Source of the DNA: an uncultured bacterium
GTDB lineage: Bacteria; Verrucomicrobiota; Kiritimatiellia; RFP12; UBA1067
Reading direction: 5' to 3'
Length of the DNA stretch: 37,457 nt
NCBI GenBank assembly: GCA_903935195.1
Contig: CAIZQW010000173.1
Span: forward strand, 1-37,457
Under the pieces are notes generated by a model. That model was not told the DNA's origin, made no database searches, and saw nothing but the letters and a program-made list of their open reading frames with translations. Every line of letters begins with the position of its first letter. The first letter of the stretch is position 1. Made by a program: the position numbers and the translations under genes. Shown piece by piece: positions 23,135 to 25,988 of this stretch.

Positions 23135-24466
23135 ATGAAAAAAGAATACAAAAGTGGAGCGTCTTCGACGCATGTTGAGATCGTGTCTTGGTCTGTCCAG
23201 AAACCCACGAAGCGAGTGGACTCCTTTTTAACCAGACCTGCTTTTTCTGCCACAGCAGAAACCGTTGCGAGTGAGGTCTTGGCCGCGGTTCGGGAGCAGG
23301 GCGATGCGGCTGTCTTGGCTGCAGCAAAGAAGTTTGATGGTGCGGTCTTAACGAAGGGACAGCTTCGCGTCAAAGAGAGTGAACTTCGAGTCGCCGTTGC
23401 GAAGGTTCCGACCAGGACAAAGCAGGCGGTTCAAGAGGCTCATCGACGTGTGTTGACCTTTGCACGTGCTGGCTTGCGTGAGCCGTGGTACCTGCAGACG
23501 CCTCAGGGCGGCTACACAGGCGAGTTCTATTCGCCGATGGATCGCGTGGGGGTGTATGTGCCAGGGGGAACAGCCCCTCTGGCGTCAACGGCAATCATGA
23601 CAGTGACCCTTGCCAAGGCCGCAGGTGTCAAGGAAATCGTTGCCTGCACGCCGTGTGGTAAAGATGGTTGTGTCAATCCGGTTCTGCTCTATGCTTTAAA
23701 GGTGGCGGGGGCAACGGAGATTTACCGTGTGGGCGGTATTCAGTCTATTGGACTGATGGCCTATGGGACAAAGACCGTCAAGCCCGTGCAGAAGATTGCG
23801 GGTCCAGGGAATGCGTATGTGACGGCGGCCAAGCGCCAGGTCTTTGGAACTGTGGCGATTGATCAGGTCGCGGGTCCGAGCGAGATTGCTATTCTGGCAG
23901 ACAAAACGGCCAAGCCCGCGTGGGTTGCCGCGGACTTGCTGTCGCAGGCTGAACATGGAAGCGGACATGAGAAGGCGCTCTTGGTCACCGATTCCGCGGG
24001 TCTGGCGCAAGCCGTTTGTGATGAGCTCTCCTGGCAGGCGGCTAAGTTGCCGCGTGCTGCCATGGTTGAACGCGTGATGGAGGCCGGCGGCATTCTGTTG
24101 GTCGTGGTCCCTGATCTGAAACAAGGCATGGAACTCGTCAACCGTTTTGCCCCTGAGCATTTTGAGATTATCACGAAGAATGCCCGTTCCCTTGTGAATG
24201 ATGTGCGAGCTGCTGGAGCTGTTTTTGTTGGGGAGTGGACGCCCGAGTCCGTGGGGGACTTTATTGCTGGCCCCAGCCATGTGTTGCCAACTGGTGGCGC
24301 TGCGCGTATGTTTAATGGCTTGACAGCGGATGAATTTCGTCGCCGTCATAGCTTTGTCGAGTTCACCCGTGAAGACCTGCTCGAAACCTGTCAGGCGATC
24401 GAAATCTTTGCAGAGGTCGAGGGGCTGGCGGCACATGGTCGGTCGGCCTCCATTCGGCTGAAGTAA
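23135..24466 (+). CDS. hisD: Histidinol dehydrogenase
   Basis: DRVGVYVPGGTAPLASTAIMTVTLAKAAGV; GPGNAYVTAAKRQVFGTVAIDQVAGPSEIAILAD; QAEHGSGHEKALLVT; GPSHVLPTGGAARMFNGLT. Confidence 0.97.
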   Translation: MKKEYKSGASSTHVEIVSWSVQKPTKRVDSFLTRPAFSATAETVASEVLAAVREQGDAAVLAAAKKFDGAVLTKGQLRVKESELRVAVAKVPTRTKQAVQEAHRRVLTFARAGLREPWYLQTPQGGYTGEFYSPMDRVGVYVPGGTAPLASTAIMTVTLAKAAGVKEIVACTPCGKDGCVNPVLLYALKVAGATEIYRVGGIQSIGLMAYGTKTVKPVQKIAGPGNAYVTAAKRQVFGTVAIDQVAGPSEIAILADKTAKPAWVAADLLSQAEHGSGHEKALLVTDSAGLAQAVCDELSWQAAKLPRAAMVERVMEAGGILLVVVPDLKQGMELVNRFAPEHFEIITKNARSLVNDVRAAGAVFVGEWTPESVGDFIAGPSHVLPTGGAARMFNGLTADEFRRRHSFVEFTREDLLETCQAIEIFAEVEGLAAHGRSASIRLK

Positions 24467-24504
24467 CAGAAAAGCATCCTTCGTGTTTTAAACACAGTCT
24501 CAAA

Positions 24505-24533
24505 TTGACCCTGTCTTAAATCTGTGTTATAGT
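24505..24533 (+). promoter_or_regulatory. Sigma70-type promoter for the putative 6S RNA transcript
   Basis: TTGACC (24505-24510), exactly 17 nt spacer, TATAGT (24528-24533), with an extended -10 TGt. Confidence 0.7.
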
Positions 24534-24589
24534 ATCGTCTTCTTTTTTTGGGATCCGGGAAGGGACTTTTTCCCGGTGAGAGTACCGAA

Positions 24590-24770
24590 GTGGACCCTGC
24601 CTTGTTCGCGGATAAGCAGAATTTCTCTGACCTTCATTTTATTTTGGGAGTTTGAACGCGGCGTAAGACGGACACCTGTTTTTGACAGGGACCTGAAGCC
24701 ACCGACTAGAGCGCCCACCTCAAGTACGAGGTTTCAGGGATCCTGTCATACGGCAAGGTGGGGTTTTTTT
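24590..24770 (+). ncRNA. ssrS: 6S RNA (ssrS-type)
   Basis: ~180 nt non-coding. Terminal 12 bp stem GACCCTGCCTTG (24593-24604) with CAAGGTGGGGTT (24754-24765), including G-U pairs; inner pairing TCTGA/TCAGG; conserved-looking GAAGCC...GCGCCCACCTcaagtacgAGGTTTCAGGGATCC matching the 6S 3' half pattern (AAGCC...CACCT...AGGGTTCAAGG); T7 run at the end. Confidence 0.75.
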
Positions 24771-24791
24771 GCATGTGTTTAAGGGTTAGTC

Positions 24792-25652
24792 ATGTGTAGA
24801 AAGCATATAATTGTAGTCTGTGTCGGTTTTTTTTCAATTTTAGTTTCTGTGAGCCGTGCCCAATTGCCGGAGGTACCAGGTGAAGCGATTGACGCGTTGG
24901 GAATGACGCTTGGGACGCCGAAGCGCACGGGCTTTGTTTTTATTGAAGGGCGTTATATTTCCCTGCCATATACGGTGTCCCGAAAAGGTAATGGCATTTT
25001 TATCAATCGGATACAGGTGGAACAGCCCTTTGCCTGGACTCCTGAAGCACTGACCCCATCCACAATTCCTCCGCCAAAGACAGACGTCGATGCCCCCGTA
25101 AAGACGGAAGAGGTCAAACCGAGTTCTTTGGACACCCCCCTTGAGACAGCAGCTCCTGTGTCTGTAATAGACACGGGTGTGGTAGCCAGCCAGCCCCCAA
25201 CGGAAGGTACGGCGGGAAAAACATTGGATTCACTTTTTGGCGAACCTGCGACTAATTCTGTTGGGGTTGACGGGAAAAACCCTCCAGAGCTGGAGAAGAA
25301 AACGCCTTCCGTGGTGCTGACGCAAACCCAGAAAGATGAACTTCGCAAGAAACTCGATATGATCAGGGCTCGATACGAACTGGGTTTAGCACGCGGCGAA
25401 ATATATTTCTTCAGTGTTAAGCATGGACGTGTAAATGGCACGTATGGCACGGCCAGACCCCTCTTTGCCGTTCTTCCAGAGGCCTTGCGTTACTCACAGT
25501 CGCCCCAGGATTTGATGAATCATCTTCGCCAAAAGGGTGTCGATTTTGTCGACCTAGCGACCTGCACAGACCTTTATCAAAACAGGCTGAATTTTATGGC
25601 GATCAATGATCGCCGAAGAATGATCGAACTTGACGAGGCAGCAAAGCATTAA
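24792..25652 (+). CDS. Secreted protein of unknown function
   Basis: Signal peptide MCRKHIIVVCVGFFSILVSVSRA; RTGFVFIEGRYISLPYTVSRKGNGIFINRIQVEQPFAW block; Pro-rich linker; C-terminal domain. Confidence 0.75.
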   Translation: MCRKHIIVVCVGFFSILVSVSRAQLPEVPGEAIDALGMTLGTPKRTGFVFIEGRYISLPYTVSRKGNGIFINRIQVEQPFAWTPEALTPSTIPPPKTDVDAPVKTEEVKPSSLDTPLETAAPVSVIDTGVVASQPPTEGTAGKTLDSLFGEPATNSVGVDGKNPPELEKKTPSVVLTQTQKDELRKKLDMIRARYELGLARGEIYFFSVKHGRVNGTYGTARPLFAVLPEALRYSQSPQDLMNHLRQKGVDFVDLATCTDLYQNRLNFMAINDRRRMIELDEAAKH

Positions 25653-25682: not shown

Positions 25683-25988
25683 ATGAAGCGCGCAATCCAT
25701 CAATGTCAACCTTCAGCCCGTCAAGCCCTTGCACAGGCCCTTGTTTCCCTGTCTGATCGCCAGGAGATGGAGCTTTTTTTAGAGGAGTTATTAACGCGTG
25801 CTGAACTGTGCGATGTGACCTTGCGTTGGCGATTGCTCGAGTTGTTGGTACAGGGGGTCTCCCAGCGGAAGATTGCTGAGGAGCTTCAGATCAGTCTTTG
25901 TAAAATTACCCGGGGGTCCCGCATTCTGAAAAACAAAAAATCAGTTTCGCGTAAAATCCTCTTTAAGGAGCCTCTCGGGAGAAAATGA
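25683..25988 (+). CDS. TrpR-family (Trp repressor/YerC-like) DNA-binding protein
   Basis: LFLEELLTRAELCDVTLRWRLLELLVQGVSQRKIAEELQISLCKITRGSRILKNKK resembles the TrpR helix-turn-helix with the ITRGS signature. Confidence 0.88.
   Translation: MKRAIHQCQPSARQALAQALVSLSDRQEMELFLEELLTRAELCDVTLRWRLLELLVQGVSQRKIAEELQISLCKITRGSRILKNKKSVSRKILFKEPLGRK

Follow-up and report, generated by a model that had tools for sequence, protein, structure and literature searches.

We identify a 6S RNA gene in the window, by which we mean the whole 37,457-nt stretch of DNA analysed here from an uncultured bacterium of the Kiritimatiellae, and with it a promoter that in related genomes appears to be written in the codons of pheT. 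6S RNA is a widespread molecule that switches off RNA polymerase. The segment at 24591-24768 is almost certainly the ssrS (6S RNA) gene, transcribed from a promoter at 24505-24533 and relocated from pheT in the window's genus. We further consider it very probable that transcription of 6S in this order starts from an extended -10 sigma70 promoter held in the codons of the essential pheT gene, at a fixed distance from the stop codon and under selection on synonymous codons, and that this promoter was lost from pheT upon uncoupling, with the relocated 6S gene having a promoter of the same type. The 6S RNA of the window is an ordinary molecule of a known family, and the codon-encoded promoter in the pheT genes of its relatives the apparently novel part. 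In the literature searched, with most subscription journals lying outside the search, we found neither a paper on 6S in Kiritimatiellae nor a report of a promoter in pheT codons. The features of the locus are as follows.

23135-24466, + strand: hisD; the upstream neighbour of 6S in the window's genome only, outside the conserved unit
24505-24533, + strand: sigma70-type extended -10 promoter, TTGACC-N14-TGT-TATAGT, 17-nt spacer (scan, shuffles, counterpart in genome G001)
24539-24590, + strand: predicted 5' leader of the precursor (from the promoter position)
24555-24576, + strand: leader hairpin, CCGGGAAGG/TTTTCCCGG (positional stem statistics in relatives)
24591-24768, + strand: 6S (SsrS) RNA, 178 nt (RF00013 score, covariation, fold z -4.0)
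24592-24609, + strand: 5' strand of the closing stem, pairing with 24750-24766 (helix 1, 7 pairs with two-sided changes)
24633-24645, + strand: 5' side of the central bubble (Rfam alignment position)
24717-24729, + strand: 3' side of the central bubble, which can form a small CCUC/GAGG hairpin
24750-24766, + strand: 3' strand of the closing stem (Rfam alignment)
24764-24770, + strand: T run (sequence)
24792-25652, + strand: gene for a secreted protein of 286 aa without a Pfam match, starting 21 nt past the T run
25683-25988, + strand: TrpR-family regulator gene; in the window's family it is retained behind the gene for the secreted protein

Identity, structure and distribution of the 6S RNA

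When the window was searched with cmscan for each of the 4227 Rfam families, a single match exceeded the gathering score: RF00013 (6S RNA) at 24591-24768 on the forward strand, with 60.6 bits where the cut-off is 46.4 (E 9.3e-10). This match spans the full length of the model (positions 1-187 of 187). No other Rfam family appeared in the 6S region up to E 10, and this copy is the only match in the 3.6-Mb MAG. The earlier note, made from the sequence alone, had placed a 6S gene between hisD and the secreted protein gene and had proposed a cmscan search of 24500-24780 for RF00013, in which the lack of a hit would have counted against it; the hit lies above the cut-off. The predicted folding energy of the segment is -67.8 kcal/mol (z -4.0), and 0 of 200 shuffles reached this stability. 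The terminal pairing that had been read by eye (24593-24604 with 24754-24765) falls inside the Rfam-aligned pairing of 24592-24605 with 24753-24766, and the T run described with it is present at 24764-24770. Together, closing stem and T run plausibly form an intrinsic terminator, and a T-rich 3' end is found in nearly all 6S homologues; a terminator scan left the 6S end unscored, as the rod does not have the form of a short hairpin. Both C24632 and C24635 are invariant in the 32-sequence alignment, and the pRNA, with the predicted sequence 5'-GAAGGUCAGAGAAA (start 5'-GAAGGUCAGAG...), is expected to begin opposite C24635.

The structure covaries across related genomes, as the earlier note had proposed to check. 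We aligned 32 homologues by sequence only with MAFFT and counted pairs on the Rfam-derived structure. Two-sided change was seen in 131 cells, compared with 47 after shuffling and no more than 63 when the partners were slid. Paired cells amounted to 79.1% (72.7% after shuffling, 51% at most when slid), and 31 pairs had changes on both sides against 19.7 in shuffles. A structure obtained independently of Rfam with RNAalifold agrees (94.6% paired, 19 pairs with two-sided change). A model score over the cut-off, a rod structure with compensatory change and wide conservation thus place the molecule in the 6S family, and a promoter at 24505-24533 with a T run at 24764-24770, both read from the sequence, mark it as a stand-alone gene. 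The same homologues bear on the two frames at 24527-24718 (reverse strand) and 24576-24782 (forward strand), which the earlier note had called spurious; both exist and are open, as real small protein genes would be, but neither matches a Pfam family, and the small indels and compensatory changes of the homologues track RNA pairing and not codons, which leaves coding with a negligible probability and the 6S RNA gene as our reading of the segment.

The suggestion that 6S RNA is poorly catalogued in this lineage proved partly right. RF00013 exceeds its cut-off in 29 of 60 close relatives (42 of 60 at E up to 1) and finds nothing in the genus g21. R1, a model built from the 32-homologue alignment, detects the gene in the three g21 genomes to which it was applied, with E about 1e-22; across the class it detects 6S in 36 of 38 genomes that are at least 90% complete, these three among them. 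6S RNA, a global regulator of transcription, therefore occurs in nearly all of a class that has been little studied and where RF00013 often fails to detect it, and R1 provides a model able to find it there. Some matches are shortened to 125-157 nt (L078-L081, L083, L084, L086-L089), with the end of pheT mostly 6-16 nt upstream, and the pheT promoter is absent in five of the genomes that carry them. One assembly holds two distinct pheT-6S loci (G053:C198, locus L008, and G053:C563, locus L075) at a contamination of 5%, and could represent a mixed bin or a true duplication. By hisD, the nearest named relatives of the window are for the most part MAGs of the Kiritimatiellae or ones filed under Verrucomicrobia or Lentisphaerae, and the genome belongs to the Kiritimatiellae. 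The record of locus L031 (CAMBQV010000082.1) is titled Akkermansia muciniphila; its hisD is 94% identical to that of the window and its other close relatives are Kiritimatiellae MAGs, so this record is probably mislabelled.

Promoter, leader and neighbouring genes in the window

The promoter that the earlier note described as TTGACC-N17-TATAGT is present at 24505-24533, with the second hexamer at 24528-24533 and a TG one base before it. It scores 10 of 12, a value matched by no shuffle of the 120 upstream bases, and a scan of 24300-24900 yielded 2 promoter-like sites against 0.5 expected. Genome G001, of the same genus, carries TTGACC-N17-TAAAGT at the same distance from 6S. Judged from the promoter position, transcription would start at about 24540 and produce a precursor some 50 nt longer at its 5' end than the 178-nt RNA. 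The segment of about 180 nt in the earlier note is thereby corrected slightly, to the 178 nt of 24591-24768 that the model matches; the hairpin in the precursor's leader is not mentioned in the note. Of the 21 pheT-linked loci with room for one, 17 have a strong stem whose end lies 11-16 nt ahead of 6S, against 0.8 expected from shuffles. The stem lies outside the Rfam model, and its position is conserved while its sequences differ among loci; we compared leaders by positional statistics because MAFFT, given only the leader sequences, put the stems out of register. Transcripts begun at the pheT promoter would reach far upstream of the 5' end of 6S, and for this reason the leader hairpin is a probable signal for 5' maturation. 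A role as an intrinsic terminator was ruled out, as no T run follows the hairpin.

The genes on either side of 6S differ in how far their association extends. A conserved link between hisD and 6S was rejected, since the two are adjacent in the window's genome only; in G001 two other genes lie between them, and none of 20 hisD loci scanned in relatives has 6S. Near hisD in relatives we observed an FMN riboswitch (L032:4724-4871) and an Acido-Lenti-1 RNA (L043:6566-6610). Downstream, the order of 6S, secreted protein gene and TrpR-family regulator gene is retained in many genera of the window's family, and the secreted protein gene starts 18-48 nt past 6S in many relatives; this proximity, 21 nt in the window, makes its expression through read-through of the 6S gene probable. 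The same closeness, and the company that the three genes keep in many genera, would also suit a cis-regulatory leader or attenuator of the secreted protein and trpR genes that resembles 6S by chance. We consider this highly improbable, given that the match spans the full 6S model, that 6S is retained elsewhere in the order and class where the secreted protein and trpR genes are missing, and that four linked genomes in which the secreted protein gene is absent (G040, G046, G053, G056) keep the pheT promoter alongside 6S. It is from these four genomes that we conclude that the pheT promoter follows 6S, and we proceed with the locus as a 6S RNA gene.

Within the order, pheT precedes 6S at 33 of 43 loci; elsewhere in the class it does so at 30 of 35 (Pfam-checked), and in other classes of the phylum at 3 of 6. 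The pheT-6S loci to which the observation of a codon-encoded promoter refers are L002-L030, L075, L078-L089, L097, L098 and L111. In most relatives 6S lies directly 3' of pheT, with a gap too small for a promoter. In gammaproteobacteria the gene order is zapA-ssrS. A ZapA gene between pheT and 6S was considered and not seen on inspection, the open reading frames in these gaps resembling a short membrane peptide instead. Such frames, of about 65-107 aa, occur in other families of the class (L100, L104, L107, L121, L127, L129, L130, L132), and their common start, M..P...W.E.L.L.., suggests a small membrane protein.

Codon use in the pheT genes of relatives

Within 120 nt upstream of pheT-linked 6S genes, promoters were no more frequent than chance (1 of 64 loci at p<0.05 against shuffles), whereas the same scan gave a promoter-like site at p<0.05 in 10 of the 18 loci that lack pheT. 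The shortage of sites near linked 6S genes first suggested that 6S is simply co-transcribed with pheT, a view superseded by a wider scan and a codon test. When 400 nt were scanned, the pattern TTGAC-N17-TA(T)NTT emerged inside the pheT frame at a constant distance from the stop codon in the window's order, and the linked loci are empty in the narrower scan because the site sits farther up, inside pheT. The pattern is spelled by codons for Leu-Thr ... Phe-Asp-Ile-Phe, and an extended -10 TG accompanies it in 30 of 30 pheT promoters. Measured against each gene's own codon use, linked pheT genes show a marked excess of the codons that spell the promoter (Leu TTG 31 observed against 5.4 expected, Phe TTT 32 against 8.7, Asp GAT 31 against 12.1, Ile ATA 10 against 1.8), whereas the 14 unlinked pheT genes show no significant codon excess (TTG 4 against 2.2, GAT 3 against 6.7). 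The pattern itself occurs in 30 of the 36 linked genes and in none of the 14 unlinked ones (Fisher 4e-8). Among the 86 codon columns scanned, the -35 leucine shows the strongest bias (z 12.6, mean 2.3), and the -10 codons rank in the top five; because the genomes are related these z-scores overstate significance, and it is thus the contrast between linked and unlinked genes that carries the argument.

Conservation of Leu-Thr...Phe-Asp-Ile-Phe in PheT could in principle account for these codons through constraint on the protein or on codon use, with 6S simply co-transcribed with pheT, and the 6 of 36 linked genes of the order that lack the pattern would fit such an account; 5 of these 6 have a shortened 6S match (125-157 nt) at most 14 nt from the stop codon. 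We judge this explanation unlikely, as the unlinked pheT genes keep the amino acids and not the codons, and the bias peaks exactly on the codons of the -35 and extended -10 elements. The pheT gene of the window's own genome (G000:C457, locus L135) encodes the same amino acids as CTG ACC ... TTC GAC ATC, and the promoter is absent. A promoter within the codons of pheT that lasts only while the RNA gene lies downstream is the reading we favor, and it makes the order a natural experiment on a promoter concealed within the coding sequence of an essential gene. It would link growth-dependent control of RNA polymerase to a gene for a tRNA synthetase, and it serves as a warning that codon bias near gene ends can encode promoters. 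In other families of the class the promoter may lie elsewhere in pheT. Candidate sites about 86 nt before the stop codon (L119, L120, L127-L131) have the form TTGAC[AG]-N18-TATCAT over Leu-Thr...Tyr-His codons, and sites about 116 nt before it (L104, L107, L124) the form TTGACC-N17-TACGAT.

Proposed mechanism and comparison with known 6S RNAs

We propose that the extended -10 promoter at 24505-24533 drives a precursor of about 230 nt, whose 5' end would be trimmed near the leader hairpin and whose 3' end would form at the closing stem and T run. The 178-nt product would be rod-shaped, built of a closing stem, a U-rich central bubble and an apical arm. By homology with the 6S RNAs studied in other bacteria (PMC8876501, PMC4227106, PMC3847290), the rod would mimic an open promoter and in this way bind the housekeeping RNA polymerase holoenzyme. 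It would be set free once the enzyme has used the 5' side of the bubble as template for a short pRNA, whose synthesis probably begins opposite C24635. In the presumed ancestral arrangement, 6S lay just 3' of pheT with its promoter built into the pheT codons; in the window's genus 6S would then have been uncoupled from pheT and gained a promoter of its own, while the promoter bases in pheT decayed.

Compared with 6S/SsrS RNAs as represented by RF00013, the RNA of the window has in common the full-length match, the rod with its closing stem, central bubble and apical arm, the conserved CUGACCU motif at the likely pRNA template, and the T-rich 3' end. It differs in that its lineage has a 5' leader hairpin of its own and a context of pheT, secreted protein and trpR genes, and in that many of its relatives score under the Rfam cut-off. 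The Ms1 RNA of Actinobacteria is structurally 6S-like and binds the core enzyme of RNA polymerase (PMC9130861); it is a core-enzyme binder from another lineage, whereas the region in the window matches 6S and no other Rfam family up to E 10. In Campylobacter and Helicobacter, a 6S RNA of about 185 nt lies directly upstream of purD, has a sigma70 promoter, and its pRNA has been seen (PMC3847290). As in the window, 6S there stands immediately 5' of a protein gene, although the neighbours are others and the promoter is not reported as lying within the upstream reading frame (PMC3847290). A parallel in gene order comes from a distant phylum, in Aquifex aeolicus, whose 6S locus is annotated pheT in Table 3 of PMC4227106. 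The available part of that paper describes no promoter inside pheT, and the shared listing of 6S at pheT suggests that the association between the two genes may be old.
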